A stretch of DNA of 52,643 nucleotides from a virus. The position numbers and the translations under genes are program-made. The DNA lies in IMG/VR virus record IMGVR_UViG_3300023116_000065, positions 1 to 52,643 of that record, one strand, 5' to 3'. Positions 1 through 42,073 of this stretch are shown in pieces. Numbering within the stretch: position 1 is the first letter of the stretch; each line of letters starts with the position of its first letter. The notes beneath the pieces are model-generated. The model saw only the letters and a program-made list of their open reading frames with translations. It did not search any database and had not been told where the DNA came from.

Positions 1-60
1 TGTAGTCATCTAAGCGAGCATGTTAACACAAAACTCTGAAAATGTCAAGACCTCAAAAAT

Positions 61-364
61 CTAGTCTAGGGGTTGACAAAAATCTCGACTAGGTTTATAA
101 TAACTCTACTAGATTCAACTAGATTTCATATAATCTCGACTAGATCATAACTAGCTCATAAAACTCTACTAGACCCCTCTAGAATCGTCTATAACACGTC
201 TAAACTAGATCTCTACTAGATTGTACTAGATTCTTCGTAATTCATAACTAGACGCACTAGATCATGTATACGTATATGTACTAGATCATAACTAGATCAT
301 GTATACATGTGTACTAGATCATGCGTGTATATGTGTACTAGATGAGCGAGAATGCGTGTACTAG
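61..364. repeat. Helically phased CTAG array (19 sites)
   Basis: The tetramer CTAG occurs 19 times here, starting at 61, 66, 89, 109, 119, 140, 151, 169, 179, 205, 216, 226, 248, 257, 281, 292, 314, 338 and 361. About one would be expected in random sequence of this length. Most copies lie in the heptamer ACTAGAT. Nearly all neighbour distances are 9-11 or 18-26 bp, close to one or two helical turns. From 257 the array becomes tandem 22-24-bp units beginning CTAGAT and ending TGTA. No supported gene overlaps it. An iteron-like protein-binding array, a bent-DNA element or a transcribed repeat RNA are the plausible readings. Confidence 0.85.
73..101 (+). promoter_or_regulatory. Consensus sigma70-type promoter
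   Basis: TTGACA at 73-78 and TATAAT at 96-101 are separated by exactly 17 bp, a full match to the bacterial sigma70 consensus. Transcription would start near 108 and run rightward through the CTAG array. There is no convincing reading frame for the next 600 bases, so the product may be a non-coding or leader RNA. It is the best promoter match seen in the window. Confidence 0.75.
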
Positions 365-5063: not shown

Positions 5064-8048
5064 ATGGCACTCAAGACAGAATATACCTTTGCAATTGGTA
5101 GCACTTTTACACCAGACAGGTTCAATGAGGACGTAAATCACGTTGCAACCTCATGGCAGGTGTCAAATCAACCTGAATTTGGTGATGATGGGCGTGTAGG
5201 TGACCGTGATTTTATTGTTTATGAGTCATTAGTTGATACAACCGCGTTAAAAACCCTTCGGTTTTTTGCAGAAGACGTATTAGAACCGTTTAAAGACTAT
5301 TATTTACGCGCAAAATACCATTCTGACCTCAAATCTGGTCGTTCTTTGGACCCTTTGGTGCTGAAATGTACTAATGGGTCCAATGTTGTAGAAATTTTAG
5401 GGCGTCAAAATGCGGAAACTGGTCTTATTGTCGCAGATTCTGTAGCAATTCAAGAAATTGAGTATGCAATGAGAGTAGATTACAAGAGTAATCTGAAGGG
5501 ATTGGTTGGTGGAAACATGTTTTCTGCGGTTTCTATCATCAAAAGCATTGATTATACTAATCAAACGCTCACATTGTCGCAAAACTGCTTATTTTCTGGA
5601 GCTTTTATCTTTGATTTGCATGAAACTTTTCAAAGTGTATGGAGTTCTGCGATCAGATTTGATTCTGATGAAGGTCTTTGGGCAACAATTGAGATTGTTA
5701 CTCAACCAACAGACATTTCTATTCCACTTACACAGTCTGGAATCCTTACTGTTCTGGCACAAATGTCAGATTCAAGTACAGTTTCTTACCAGTGGCAAAT
5801 TAGAAACTCTTTAGGGCAGTTTCAGGACATTTCTGGAGCTACAGGAACGAATCTAAACATATCAAATGTTGCTCTAACTGATGATCAGAGTGTTTATCGT
5901 GTTATAGCAACATCAATTTATGGTCAAGTTCTGATTTCAAATGAAGTAACACTGACTGTTATCCCAATTACACTCACAATTCTCAGAAATCCAAGAGATT
6001 CTACGTTTGTTCAGGGTGGAACCGCATCGTTTGACGTGGTTGCTGAGATTAATGGTAATGCAAATCTTACATATCAGTGGCAAAAACAAGAAGCAGTTGA
6101 TGACCAATGGGTAGACATTACTGGTGCAACTAGTGTGACTTATGTAACAGGAACACTTGACTCTGTAAATGATCTTGGTGACAAGTATCGTGTCAAGGTC
6201 AGTAATGATGTTGCACCTGATATCTTTATATTTTCTGAACAAGCTGAACTACTTGCACAACCATACGATCTTACTCTTGTTTATCCAGACAATACAACGC
6301 AAAACTGGATATTTGACATCGATGGTCCAGTGATTTGTGATAGTAGTGTTGGTACTACGTGGAACGTAATTCCACAGTCACCACAGGATGTTGATATTAA
6401 GATGTGGGGTAAGAGTACAAGTAGTGAGTATGCTGGATATAGTGAAGGTAGGGTTACCCTAACACAAGGAAATGACTATAGAATTCATACAAATGTTGGT
6501 GGTGGATCACATGGAACTGGGTATGGTTGGCCATCAAATGAAAATGGTGGTGGTTATACTGGAATTTTTGATGGTCTAAGTGCATCTCAATCATCAGCAA
6601 TTATGATTGCTGGTGGATCTGGTGGTAGAGGATATGGTCATGGATCATCTGCTGGTGGTCGTGGTGGTGGTAATAGTGGTAGTGCAGGTACAAACTCCAA
6701 TGATACTCAAATTGGATCCACTGGTGGTGGAGGTGGTTCTCAAACCTCTGGCGGTGGAGGAGGTGGTGCAGGGGGATCCTCTGGTAGCGCCTTACAAGGT
6801 GGTAGAGGTGGTGATGGATATAGAGGTGGTTACCCCAACGCTGGAGGCGGTGGCGGTGGCGGCGGCGGTTACTACGGCGGCGGTGGCGGCGGTGGTGGTA
6901 ATGACAATGGTTCATCCACTCGTAATGCATCTGGTGGTGGAGGAGGATCTGGTTACATTAATCAATCACTAGTTACTAATGGTCTTACCTCCAATGTCAA
7001 TACAAATAATTTGTTATCAAATGGTGGTACTTGGGATGATCTGGATCCAAACCGCAATAATGCAGGATATAATTCTAATGGATCCGCTCGTCTTGTCATG
7101 TCTTCTGTTTTAGGTCAATATTATACAGATCCCGATGGAAGATTCCTCATCTTTTCCAACTGTACTTACATGACTCCACCATCATCGATGCAGAAGACAT
7201 TCGGTACTGTATATCCAGGAGATACTAAGTGTATTGATAATGCAAGATGGCAGAGTATTCGTAGTTCTGCTGGTAACACCTCTGCTACAAATTATCGTAT
7301 TCAATTTACAATCGGTGGATCTAAGAAACCATGGGCAACAGGAAATCCCACTGATTATAATCTTTACAAGATGAGAACTGCAAATGTCTTACCATTGGTA
7401 ACTGATCTTACTGATTGGGGTAGTTTTGCAGATGTTTCAACAGCAGATTCATATAGAAATTTGGTATATTTTGCTTGGCATGAAGATGCTCTTGATAGTT
7501 ATGCTGGTCCTTATTGGGGATATGGTTTGGATTACACTGGATTATCTTATGGGGATTATAATAGTTCTCCTCAATATTATACTAGTCCAGGAACTAGTGC
7601 ATTTGCACAGTCAGTTAATTCATCAATACCTACATTTTCTGGTTCATACGACAGTGAAAGAACAATCTCAATGTGGATCATTCCACCAGGGGTAACACCA
7701 ATTACAGGAAGTAGTAGAACTGCAACAGCTGATGTATATGAAAACCCAGCATGTAATCCTTCAACATATTCAAATGGGTGGTACACAAGAACTGGTGGTA
7801 GTGAGACTACTCCTAGTAGTTGGAGACAGATTGTTATCATTTTTGATGGTGTTGTTGTTGTGAACACTCAAACTGATTCTGTCACTATAAATCCATTTGA
7901 TGGTACGATTACTAAAGATGGGTGGACTTATGAAGCATCTACCCATAGGGGATCAGTTTATGGTTGGGCTTCGGATGGAACTTCTTGTGGTCAGCAGTCA
8001 AGTCCTAATGGGGACTTCTGCAATTCATTTGACGTTATCAGGTATTGA
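5064..8048 (+). CDS. Ig-like and polyglycine tail adhesin (994 aa)
   Basis: Residues 1-200 form an unrecognised N-terminal domain that may anchor it to the virion. Two Ig-like domains follow (about 210-298 and 303-397), each with the SYQWQ/TYQWQ strand and a late VYRV/KYRV strand. Residues about 478-630 are extremely glycine-rich, with runs of up to nine G separated by Y, S and N. This recalls the polyglycine-helix adhesins at fibre tips of T-even-like phages. The last 350 residues are aromatic, with several cysteines, and may carry receptor binding. It follows the PAAR gene by one base. The G-rich DNA at 6840-6900 is a local G+C spike. The exact role is inferred. Confidence 0.8.
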   Translation: MALKTEYTFAIGSTFTPDRFNEDVNHVATSWQVSNQPEFGDDGRVGDRDFIVYESLVDTTALKTLRFFAEDVLEPFKDYYLRAKYHSDLKSGRSLDPLVLKCTNGSNVVEILGRQNAETGLIVADSVAIQEIEYAMRVDYKSNLKGLVGGNMFSAVSIIKSIDYTNQTLTLSQNCLFSGAFIFDLHETFQSVWSSAIRFDSDEGLWATIEIVTQPTDISIPLTQSGILTVLAQMSDSSTVSYQWQIRNSLGQFQDISGATGTNLNISNVALTDDQSVYRVIATSIYGQVLISNEVTLTVIPITLTILRNPRDSTFVQGGTASFDVVAEINGNANLTYQWQKQEAVDDQWVDITGATSVTYVTGTLDSVNDLGDKYRVKVSNDVAPDIFIFSEQAELLAQPYDLTLVYPDNTTQNWIFDIDGPVICDSSVGTTWNVIPQSPQDVDIKMWGKSTSSEYAGYSEGRVTLTQGNDYRIHTNVGGGSHGTGYGWPSNENGGGYTGIFDGLSASQSSAIMIAGGSGGRGYGHGSSAGGRGGGNSGSAGTNSNDTQIGSTGGGGGSQTSGGGGGGAGGSSGSALQGGRGGDGYRGGYPNAGGGGGGGGGYYGGGGGGGGNDNGSSTRNASGGGGGSGYINQSLVTNGLTSNVNTNNLLSNGGTWDDLDPNRNNAGYNSNGSARLVMSSVLGQYYTDPDGRFLIFSNCTYMTPPSSMQKTFGTVYPGDTKCIDNARWQSIRSSAGNTSATNYRIQFTIGGSKKPWATGNPTDYNLYKMRTANVLPLVTDLTDWGSFADVSTADSYRNLVYFAWHEDALDSYAGPYWGYGLDYTGLSYGDYNSSPQYYTSPGTSAFAQSVNSSIPTFSGSYDSERTISMWIIPPGVTPITGSSRTATADVYENPACNPSTYSNGWYTRTGGSETTPSSWRQIVIIFDGVVVVNTQTDSVTINPFDGTITKDGWTYEASTHRGSVYGWASDGTSCGQQSSPNGDFCNSFDVIRY

Positions 8049-39400: not shown

Positions 39401-42073
39401 GGCACTCTAGACAGAAGTAATGGTCGATATTGTGTAACTCCTGAGTATCCAAATGGAACATATGCATACTTTGTATCTACAGACACTAATGGTGCTAACA
39501 CATATCCATATGTGATTGGTCCTCTGATGCGTCAGGGTTACAATGTTGTTGGTGGAACTGCTCCTACTGATCCTGGTGGTACAAACCTTCAGGGACCAGG
39601 TAATGGTGCTTTTGATATCAAGAGAGTATTTACTACTGGTGTCACAATTCAAGCGATTGCTGGAACAAGCACCAGACAAGTTTATGCAATTGAATCTGTA
39701 GATGCTACTGAACCTGTAACTTACCAGTGGCAAAGAAGTTCTGATAACTCAACCTGGACAAATATTGGACCTGGTGATACTGGTTATTCCAACTATACCA
39801 CCAATACACTAACAATTAATGATAGTGATAAGTCTATCGATGATCTGTATATTAGATTGCAGGTTACTGATAGTCTAAGTGTTATTGGTAATTCTGCGCC
39901 CATGGCGCTGGAATATGTTGGAGCAACTCTAGCAATTACAACTCAACCAACAACAGTATCCACTTTTTCTGGGGTGGGAGCGTCGTTCAACATTGCTGTT
40001 ACTGCAACTGATTCCAGTACAGTATCATATAGATGGCAGTATAGTTCTAACGGTGGATCTACATGGGCAAATGTTAGCACTTTAGGTGATTGGAGTGCAG
40101 TAAATGATACTCAGGCATCATTATCTTTGCCTGGTTCTACAATTACAACAACCAAAAATAATTATCAAATTAGATGTGTTGTTGACTCACCGTCTGCAGA
40201 GAATGGTCCACTAAACTCAAATGCAGCTACACTGACCGTAGGAAATACAACTGTTGCTGCTAGTGGAGTTGTTCATACTAATAATGCTAACAACCCAATT
40301 AAATCATATGATGAAGGTGAGACTATCTCCGTTGAAGCAACTATTACACCATCACAGAATGTTCCTGTAAACTATACCTGGAAGAGAAGTGTAGACAATG
40401 TAACTTATACTACAGCTGCTTCTGGATCTTTAACTCAAGCAAGTCCAACAACGACATTTACTGAAACTGCAGATCAAGCAACTCTTGGTGGTGCTACAAT
40501 TTATTATAAACTTGAATATGATATTCCTGGTGTTGTTACTGGTGCAAGTGCTCCTCAGATTGCAACATCAAATATCTTCAAAGCACTTACAATCACATCT
40601 CAACCATCAGATACTACAGTATATGTAACGCAACCAGCATCGTTTACTGTTGCTGCAACTGCAACTAGTGGTACTGAAACTTATCAATGGCAGTCATATG
40701 ATGGGTCTAGTTGGAATGATATCTCTGGTCAGACTACAAATACTTTGACCATCTCTAGCCCAACACTTGCAGATAATGCAAACACATATCGTGTAAAGGT
40801 TACTTTGGTTGGACAAAATCCATCAAGTACGGATCCTAATAGAGTTGGTGATGTTATTACATCTGGCACTGCCACATTATCAGTTGACGCTCAACCATCG
40901 ATTGGTATTACTGTACAACCAGCAAACTTGTCTGTATATCAACCCGATGTTGCAGTGTTTGCTGTTGAGGCAGCTGCTTCTGATGGATCTGACATTACAT
41001 ATCAGTGGCAAGAAAGTAGCGATACTGGAAATACTTGGAGTAATATTAGTAATGCAACTAGTAACTCGGTTAGTACTGGAGTTACAACTACTGCAGGATT
41101 CAATGGCAGACAGTACAGAGTTATCATTACCCACCCATACGGATCTAATAGTCCACTAACTTCAAACGTAGCAACTCTAACTGTACAGACTCCTGTAATT
41201 AATATTGCTACTCAACCACAAAGTTTCAACGTTACTGCAGGTATTCCAGTTACGTTTGCAGTTACTGCAACTGTAACTAGTGGTAAGACAATCAATTATC
41301 AGTGGCAATATAGCACTGATGGTGGAGCAAATTACTCCAGTATCTTTGATGAGAACAACCCATCACTAACGACAATTGGTGGAACTGAGAACAATGGTTG
41401 GTACTATCGTTGTGTACTCACATCTGAGGGTGCAGCAGATGTAAATTCTGATGCAGGTATTCTGAGTCTTGCATATCTTGCAAACCCAACAATTACGTCA
41501 AGTAGATTTATTGATACTGTCACTAATCTGACATTTACTAGATCACCAATTATCTACGCATCATCCTTCCAATCATACATTGGAAATGGTCACGAGTCTT
41601 CTTTCTGGACTATTAGAAGAACATCAGACAATGTGGTTGTATATCAAACTATCGACACGTTGCCAGATGGTGATACCGTACAAAAAATTGAATTACAAAC
41701 ACCTGAGTTGGATTGGGGAACTGAGTATACTGTTCAAGTCAAATATAGAGACTCTGCAGGATTTGAAACTGCAATTTCACCTGCAGCAACGTTTGTTACT
41801 CCTGTAGTAAATCAACCCACGTTCCAACCAATTCCAACTTCACTGAGACCAACTATCATTCTAAATAGTATTGAGTTCAACAGTGCGTTATATAACCATA
41901 GTTCAACATCGTGGCAGGTTGCATCTTCTGGTACATTTGCATCAAATGCAATTGTCTATGAGTCTCTAGATGATGTATCTAACAAGATTACAATTACAAT
42001 TCCAGAGACTGTAACACTAGATGCCTCTAGAAATTATTATGTGAGAGCGAAGATCAATCTAACAGCTATCTAA
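33470..42073 (+). CDS. Multidomain virion subtilisin with cupredoxin, VWA, YHYH and Ig domains (2867 aa)
   Basis: Residues about 90-580 form an S8 (subtilisin) peptidase with all key residues: D125 in IYIIDSG, H194 in DGHGTYC, oxyanion N442 in RSAGN, S558 in NGTSFSAP. Between VVNVSIG (265-271) and the RSAGN strand sits an inserted cupredoxin (about 290-407) with H342, C394, H397 and M400 as type-1 copper ligands. A second cupredoxin (about 720-865) has H757, C852, H855 and M858. Then follow an Ig-like domain (near 1180), a VWA-like MIDAS DDSGS (1524-1528), a YHYH module (near 1900-2020), about six more Ig-like domains with YQWQ strands (2050-2650) and a C-terminal fibronectin-like part. Likely a tail protein acting on host surface proteins or on virion assembly; the role is inferred. 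Confidence 0.88.
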   Translation: MSNKVLLQKSKLSELSLTQIAEDVSSKVSVDSYKILKNQNLIVFDGDDQDRLYAEIKDLEHGKVTKDHSNFEFHAQRSTIAPGTSNRYWHLDAITRLDYTHNAPSGNGTFSTINNGEDIDIYIIDSGIQGASRPTGTNAALHPELFDPQYVTDLNGATEQAFYRVYELPTSVYNPGTTAGNDPQSTGNIANDGHGTYCAIMAAGRYAGVANKAKVYSLRVSDDSGVIYLSKMIEAYEAIYRHNDPDDSEYKGNTLEGNTRPRPSVVNVSIGATAPNPKAPYIDRNENYTGNAVALTASASSSNDYTINGTDAATTHTNALDPTITVNAGDTLTITTSAGASHPMSICVEGTTTYSEGARVEVGVTGQGETNGDIVIDTTALLAGERTGSFVYICQSHDAMRGTITINDANSPTSSNVNEILDDGEFILSTQKGVAVTRSAGNGMQFIDPDIDPNNPVDYGPQNTKITYGSRNAGKPSLLDPEISIAPEYNRNEVNNATKFVVGATKIDSNNKQSFADFTNYGEAVTCYAPGQGILCPRYDWNSGDDYTASHITINGTSFSAPLVAGMLAVWKQIHDGPVWSTGLHNASIATERKYKFADYTNPSVITQGAVGNFQNPTRASSGSAVTRYGSTSSGSSWYRFSTTSASNAVVLQLTDAEYTALSPAQNDVFEFEFPRIQENNTTGANGLATEYLRDAMHLGERRDYNVTVAPGGGGNVYELARVQNGIAGTATAQPVLQLDDGVVYRFDQSDSSNATHPIAISNTGDGTHSGGVNFQTYVSNLAGQLSQSYKKNLRFFKDEGTGPVEIDQDAYNGLVGQGPAIKTWIEWINPQNNTHPKVDSSIYASVFHYYCVNHPNMGSSLNSSGTVPSTVSIGGIDLREFGKKWRKVQSVDAVNKTITFHADSNATGTEVGGGGAFAQADEITDQGAWPRYPLRFTKITGTWFANDAVWNWTENHSSVLYPFTKYAGGSFSAGEFYAQLESEEGNADGQLVEYFPIPKGRLVREGIAGGNEQATQALQVGARWGTGTIAEPRVYTPLPAGQSSVTYDGGQGVYFPFIDLTATWSDADGSTIATFAHNEVASRTVSLSTVSTFAGDLIAAEDREQNYELVSGGSNSAFTQNNNLYTITGSGLTFNSSTGELFGTATGGAQATNYQFTLRETTSQATVTYNFTVNGAPVSSTITVTSQPPATFIGDASFPVDQGTIQISIAATDSLSSTITYQWQVAADLAAANAGTFVDVTDNDGFSGSTNPTLTIPDKSEHDGKYYRCKLDSSTAPASVYTDTSLAAIAPVITCRVLWNAITTVYATGSLALVEIDSNVSDGSTPTLTLAYDTSQFTPTSLETDIPDTTYDLISAGYNSAAGNPIYFARLGENAFNTSSAGQTPIVGTYKSDDGVFLKVTATSGSTTQDAVALFSQQIVPCLALIDENDGQTQGSLDADWTSFRSSWPDRPFHLLHVKNSAGTGWGNLSTPTGAVQGTDYFYYQIERDPSTALTSYSGVYDWFTLTGMNTLSSGATLALFIDDSGSMNVADVQDQLDEFEADCTAAGINIIRLYNGSEQYVAPFITELTITEPNPYQGPFTVEKAYTLTSDLPNTQDIPKQTNTALSPSWGIANNTGISAATVVWYYKNAGDPSFTKLLSANTTSLPWYVSGHGTATLTVNFPDDTYDGMSFYAVGYNDFLGTSGGDDTNDIAKYSGVNTGVLATNVSPFTVSDVTNPPGVTDPEATISKTSATLNASEYLITVSSDNLPDPAQYGVFPNDNNTNSVEDKTFIHTFHYRGGTNTSALTPVTDDALAITTNGTPIYGAKISGNLTGDTGSAAGLAPAGFSWNAGLYTLDTSLGGNIYGADLAGGYADSSNTYVYRTGKFALSGSGPYSAEMWDGIGRSNNYYRTGNFSGDYLRHSDGHSKIIGIAFDGHPIYGTWGYSSALDNTSAITRMTSSYTAYAQEQPGRTYTYAQYPAGTFVEDYQFVSSSGTLDRSNGRYCVTPEYPNGTYAYFVSTDTNGANTYPYVIGPLMRQGYNVVGGTAPTDPGGTNLQGPGNGAFDIKRVFTTGVTIQAIAGTSTRQVYAIESVDATEPVTYQWQRSSDNSTWTNIGPGDTGYSNYTTNTLTINDSDKSIDDLYIRLQVTDSLSVIGNSAPMALEYVGATLAITTQPTTVSTFSGVGASFNIAVTATDSSTVSYRWQYSSNGGSTWANVSTLGDWSAVNDTQASLSLPGSTITTTKNNYQIRCVVDSPSAENGPLNSNAATLTVGNTTVAASGVVHTNNANNPIKSYDEGETISVEATITPSQNVPVNYTWKRSVDNVTYTTAASGSLTQASPTTTFTETADQATLGGATIYYKLEYDIPGVVTGASAPQIATSNIFKALTITSQPSDTTVYVTQPASFTVAATATSGTETYQWQSYDGSSWNDISGQTTNTLTISSPTLADNANTYRVKVTLVGQNPSSTDPNRVGDVITSGTATLSVDAQPSIGITVQPANLSVYQPDVAVFAVEAAASDGSDITYQWQESSDTGNTWSNISNATSNSVSTGVTTTAGFNGRQYRVIITHPYGSNSPLTSNVATLTVQTPVINIATQPQSFNVTAGIPVTFAVTATVTSGKTINYQWQYSTDGGANYSSIFDENNPSLTTIGGTENNGWYYRCVLTSEGAADVNSDAGILSLAYLANPTITSSRFIDTVTNLTFTRSPIIYASSFQSYIGNGHESSFWTIRRTSDNVVVYQTIDTLPDGDTVQKIELQTPELDWGTEYTVQVKYRDSAGFETAISPAATFVTPVVNQPTFQPIPTSLRPTIILNSIEFNSALYNHSSTSWQVASSGTFASNAIVYESLDDVSNKITITIPETVTLDASRNYYVRAKINLTAI
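34335..34690 (+). other. Cupredoxin-like domain nested inside the S8 peptidase
   Basis: Codes for residues about 289-407 of the 2867-aa protein. Strand pattern DPTITVNAGDTLTITTSAG, then SHPMSI, then SFVYICQSHDAMRGTITI. H342, C394, H397 and M400 form the H...C-x2-H-x2-M arrangement of type-1 copper sites. It lies between the subtilisin VVNVSIG strand and the helix before RSAGN, so it interrupts the catalytic domain rather than flanking it. Confidence 0.75.
35620..36070 (+). other. Second cupredoxin-like domain
   Basis: Residues about 718-867 of the 2867-aa protein: YELARVQNGI..., LQLDDGVVYRFDQSDSSNATHPIAIS, then FHYYCVNHPNMGSS. Ligands H757, C852, H855 and M858. The 95 residues between the first His and the Cys are more than in the nested copy, with an extra segment that includes YKKNLRFFKDEG. 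Confidence 0.7.
39190..39520 (+). other. YHYH-type module 3
   Basis: Encodes HSKIIGIAFDGHPIYGTWGY, then GTFVEDYQF, then SNGRYCVTPEYPNGTYAYF and YPYVIG, matching the two modules in the 4009-aa protein block for block. Confidence 0.75.

Follow-up and report, generated by a model that had tools for sequence, protein, structure and literature searches.

A recurrent, operator-like dyad array at a probable early promoter in T4-like cyanophages

The described systems closest to the locus reported here are certain multi-operator phage promoters, replication origins and the stoperators of mycobacteriophages. At the promoters of lambda and 434 there are about three operators, with the repressor gene next to them. 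The replication origins of T4 use strong promoters that supply a primer transcript. Phi11 likewise has about three operators beside its repressor gene (PMC3991615). The stoperators of Cluster A mycobacteriophages, such as L5 and Bxb1, are short and numerous sites for a repressor, most of which share one orientation with respect to transcription (PMC6550527); the repressor bound to them is reported to downregulate early promoters and to terminate elongation (PMC9283540).

We analyzed the linear IMG/VR record IMGVR_UViG_3300023116_000065 in its full length of 52,643 nt (the window), at whose start lies an array of short sites. Like the stoperators, the sites are many and short, and the half-sites of the window are co-directional. 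Unlike the stoperators, which are asymmetric and distributed genome-wide, the wider family is built from a dyad, and its sites are restricted to a single locus of at most about 8 kb; furthermore, stoperators occur in temperate phages whose repressor is known, whereas the cyanophages considered here are regarded as lytic. The likeness to the lambda/434-type and Phi11 promoters lies in dyads placed like operators over probable early promoter elements with a divergent promoter adjacent; the difference lies in up to 19 half-sites here and in the absence of a detected repressor gene. With the T4 origins and the cyanobacterial oriC the locus has in common a promoter and DnaA-box sequences in an AT-rich intergenic region, but the dyads are distinct from DnaA boxes, and across cyanophages the presence of one feature is not tied to that of the other. 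Our preferred reading, to which we assign a probability of about two in three, is that the array serves as operator region for a strong early promoter of the host-sigma-70 type in T4-like cyanophages, where a putative dimeric regulator would bind.

The array and the promoters at the start of the window

The window is a fragment of a T4-like cyanomyovirus (Kyanoviridae); it has T4-like baseplate genes of the gp25 and gp6 types and its closest similarity is to Synechococcus myoviruses. It begins within a conserved non-coding locus, with the array at its extreme start (61-364, plus strand), 5' of a run of small genes that precedes gp25. The first credible downstream gene belongs to PHROG 1352, a family with one member matching Pfam DUF7326, and is located at 713-922 on the plus strand (ORF 638-922, start probably at 713). 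The array region itself appears gene-free, as the initial annotation proposed: the ORFs found there are of low complexity, at most 68 aa long and none is a credible gene. The majority of CTAG spacings in the array are not multiples of 3.

All nineteen CTAG tetramers reported by that annotation were recovered with their spacings, mainly as ACTAGAT half-sites co-directional with the plus-strand promoter; the 22-24-bp iteron-like units from 257 onward are also present, as imperfect tandem repeats. Dinucleotide shuffles of 55-372 (n = 2000) gave a mean of 3.05 and a maximum of 9 CTAGs, and no other 310-bp stretch of the window has more than 5. The tetramer had been presented as normally rare in bacterial and phage DNA; across the window it is not rare (183 seen versus 176 expected) and, hence, the unusual aspect is its local density. 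As for other genomes, S-SM2 (GU071095) has zero CTAG in 190,789 bases, while three other cyanophages that were counted have 326-523. Helical phasing, which was likewise claimed, is weak: the neighbor spacings are better than those of random placement (p = 0.0016), but the positions are not significantly periodic (Rayleigh test, periods 10-11.5, p = 0.11). When ten array groups are pooled, the strongest periodicity is at 11.1 bp, with a small amplitude (0.11, p = 0.004), and a 10.5-bp signal is nearly absent.

The initial annotation made no mention of three further elements: a perfect sigma-70 promoter, a divergent promoter and a pair of DnaA-box sequences. The first of these, TTGACA-17-TATAAT at 73-101 on the plus strand, has 12/12 matches and is the only perfect one in the window. 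Five sites in the window score as dyads. Three are strong: TCTCGACTAGG (83-93) within the 17-bp spacer, the exact dyad TCTCGACTAGA (134-144) 3' of the promoter and the near-dyad TCTCTACTAGA (210-220). Two are weaker: TCTAGTCTAGG (60-70), which lies 2 bp 5' of the -35 hexamer and is found in the same place in the contig piece L188, and a site near 204. The remaining CTAGs are half-sites, with 15 of 16 in one orientation; half-sites are mostly co-directional with transcription across all ten array groups (82:16), with a sign-test p of 0.002 that is optimistic because several of the groups are related.

The divergent promoter occupies 5-48 on the minus strand (10/12 matches), with its -35 TTGACA at 48-43, an extended -10 TGTTAACAT and then a conserved GCTCGCTTAGATGAC. 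It is conserved in about 45 loci, including those of S-BM3, S-SM2 and Bellamy, and the conserved start that follows TTGACA and the extended -10 is GCTCGCTTAG. The general form, TTGACA-N14-TGnTANNNT followed by a conserved GCNCGCTTAG..CACAAG start, is seen in cyanomyoviruses both with and without the array.

A 22-bp perfect inverted repeat lies 3' of the array (397-492; arms at 397-418 and 471-492). The block CACTCACCCCTACCCACACC, which is part of this repeat in the window, is common to several of a set comprising the window (397-418/471-492) and the loci L179, L180, L297 and L379-L382. The long repeat was rejected as a conserved hairpin: a close relative, L188 together with L382, is without it. 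These two are adjoining pieces of a single contig, for which reason the notion that contigs break at the array was also set aside.

A dyad associated with promoters at a single locus

The repeat unit had been taken to be CTAG; across IMG/VR contigs and in P-SSM2 the unit of the family is instead an 11-bp dyad, TCTMG-W-CKAGA, in which CTAG and CGAG are interchangeable half-sites. The base at its center is A or T in all of more than 430 sites, any base having been permitted. A paired-dyad scan of IMG/VR yielded at least 120 stretches, and in nine further IMG/VR records 61 dyads were counted, the reversed pattern occurring twice; the dyads form clusters separated by no more than a few kb, and two of the records repeat a cluster near both ends. 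Among isolates, P-SSM2 (252 kb) has 4 exact dyads, every one at 66030-66169, and S-BM3 (169 kb) also has 4, every one at 6487-6648. In S-BM3 a CTAG array occurs at the place matching that of the window, 3' of the same word, TGTAGTCATCTAAGCG. Two search handles were discarded: this upstream word, which in IMG/VR matched just one unrelated phage, and a triple ACTAGAT pattern, which returned mostly in-frame coding repeats.

The arrangement of dyads with a promoter is found in S-BM3, P-SSM2 and at least about a hundred IMG/VR contigs. Of 143 non-redundant dyad clusters, 25 have a perfect TTGACA-16..18-TATAAT promoter; among 287 intergenic windows without dyads, 5 do (p = 7e-9). Promoters with at most 2 mismatches are present in 83/143 clusters, 38 of these 83 having a dyad center in the spacer; the other 60/143 have no promoter within 2 mismatches. 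Twenty-seven dyads sit 13-14 bp from the center of the -10 box, and a dyad-promoter-dyad layout is common to S-BM3, P-SSM2, the contig L380 and the window. Repeated dyads, then, overlap promoter elements at fixed positions, and this placement is, to judge by sequence, the layout of a promoter operator.

The initial annotation also considered a repetitive RNA, and the leader transcript, from about 108, could in principle be a structured non-coding RNA or a protein sponge. The shared direction of half-sites and transcription in the ten array groups would suit such an RNA. In the subset with the least bias, the two halves of a dyad vary together (odds ratio 5.5), which fits the site of a homodimer and is also compatible with a short hairpin, as this would covary likewise; a pooled odds ratio of 1.0, once used to exclude RNA hairpins, was dropped on account of the bias of the scan pattern, the value of 5.5 coming from clusters without a scan match. 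In the same subset, 30% of the dyads (30/100) are mismatched hybrids. The RNA fold is unremarkable (z-score -1.29), and no Rfam family reaches its gathering score. Moreover, dyads occur in the spacer and 5' of the -35 box, beyond the expected transcript, which favors a function in DNA. We therefore view an RNA role as quite improbable.

The suggested identity as a non-coding array of a protein-binding type is supported. Other cyanophages have such arrays in the matching genomic position, so that this one is not a recent slippage product. Units are gained and lost between close relatives with fast turnover, each array using a dialect of its own (ACTAGAT, ACTAGCTC or CGACGAGAT), features that would be in keeping with slippage or recombination having multiplied the units in tandem, without function, around an otherwise ordinary promoter. 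Set against this are the occurrence of the same dyad with its invariant A/T center at one locus in distant lineages, the fixed promoter geometry and the preferential retention of CTAG between close pairs (44/48 versus 590/863 for other tetramers, p = 3e-4), and such an origin of the array appears very unlikely. The locus is without an array in S-SM2, Bellamy, S-RIM8, S-WAM2 and S-B43; as many cultured cyanophages do without it, the array is dispensable for the family. Mimicry of a host operator is ruled against by a scan for dyad pairs, which found none in 386 cyanobacterial genomes: the array is thus not a copy of a common host operator cluster.

A small acidic ORF (MYxxLDxxLD... or MYDDYDLDY...) contains dyads or half-sites in its coding sequence in P-SSM2 (66124-66279, PSSM2_098) and in the loci L027, L056 and L350. 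Since some of the dyads of P-SSM2, L027 and L056 fall within it, the pattern there may partly be coding.

DnaA boxes and a candidate replication origin

The inverted pair of TTTTCCACA sequences at 547-582 of the window (GTTTTCCACA at 548-557 and TGTGGAAAAC at 572-581) matches the cyanobacterial DnaA-box consensus (PMC4674748). It is conceivable that these are host DnaA boxes, that the dyads and half-sites serve a phage initiator as iterons and that the strong promoters give a primer transcript in the manner of T4 origins. In line with this, there is one dyad region per genome, divergent promoters are present at the locus, and DnaA boxes are found at it not only in the window but also in S-CREM1 (5/6 copies), S-RIM8 (3/5, a fourth being 1.6 kb off), S-SM2 (2/3) and S-BM3 (1/2). 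However, S-RIM8, S-CREM1 and S-SM2 have their DnaA-box clusters without a dyad array, and S-WAM2, S-B43, Bellamy and P-SSM2 have no DnaA boxes at the locus, so that the two features are separable. Some genomes, moreover, hold 2-4 dyad clusters inside 8 kb, the dyads take a fixed position in promoters, and the GC skew of four genomes does not turn at the locus. On this balance, we consider it unlikely, if worth keeping in view, that the dyads are iterons.

DnaA-box sites lie next to the array in the window, S-BM3 and L188, with none at the array of P-SSM2. Clusters of TTTTCCACA are located at 547-582 in the window, 87785-88433 in S-CREM1, 41476-41735 in S-RIM8 and 58064-58093 in S-SM2. Given the DnaA-box pairs and the conserved divergent promoter, an origin role is possible beside or together with promoter control, and the locus is a candidate cyanophage replication origin that would use host DnaA. 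For the packaging, partition or recombination roles that had been suggested, nothing was found.

The putative regulator and early gene control

Returning to the operator reading, we propose that a putative dimeric DNA-binding regulator, probably phage-encoded, would recognize the dyad in the extended form ATCTMG-W-CKAGAT. With one dyad abutting the -35 box, one filling the -35/-10 spacer and others downstream, occupancy should block RNA polymerase: the former sites would prevent its binding and the downstream sites, which in the lineage of the window are mostly ACTAGAT half-sites running with transcription, would block early elongation. The expected outcome is repression, rather than activation, of genes that are probably early, or their shut-off on a timer. 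A gene-content comparison found no DNA-binding gene common to P-SSM2, S-BM3 and the genome G001 that is absent from S-SM2, S-RIM8 and S-CREM1. One shared ORF, of 63 aa, turned out to be the terminal part of a protein of the ferredoxin-dependent bilin reductase type.

GIY-YIG homing endonucleases are encoded beside many arrays, and the dyads might be their recognition or operator sites: the 500 bp upstream contain a dyad for 37 of 42 GIY-YIG ORFs versus 24 of 517 other ORFs of at least 150 aa, and one GIY-YIG ORF carries a NUMOD1 domain. Nonetheless, P-SSM2, S-BM3, G001 and G002 have arrays yet no GIY-YIG gene above threshold, and only 37 of 134 dyad loci have such a gene within 700 bp. Complete array genomes without the gene led us to reject these enzymes as the universal dyad binder, and the dyads are most improbable as endonuclease sites. 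In 39 IMG/VR loci (e.g. L267, L278 and L351) a dyad nearly always precedes the GIY-YIG gene by at most 500 bp, and some of these genes follow the divergent promoter; a related GIY-YIG group follows that promoter in about a third of 41 loci.

No description of the array was found in the open-access papers searched, a set that most subscription journals fall outside; the array family is apparently new to the literature. It is real and widespread and, by its sequence features, seemingly of an operator type on a probable early promoter. A more speculative extension, which we rate as doubtful, is that a phage regulator acting on the dyads forms a repressor-type switch for the main early promoter, with superinfection immunity or a delayed pseudolysogenic state as possible consequences, and that the same divergent-promoter locus, with its host DnaA boxes, is also the replication origin. 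Recurring as it does on a perfect promoter of the host type, an array of operator type would imply a regulator apparently not described before. The marine T4-like cyanophages are among the most abundant viruses of the sea and their early gene control is poorly understood; the presence of the array in the cultured P-SSM2 and S-BM3 makes the idea testable.
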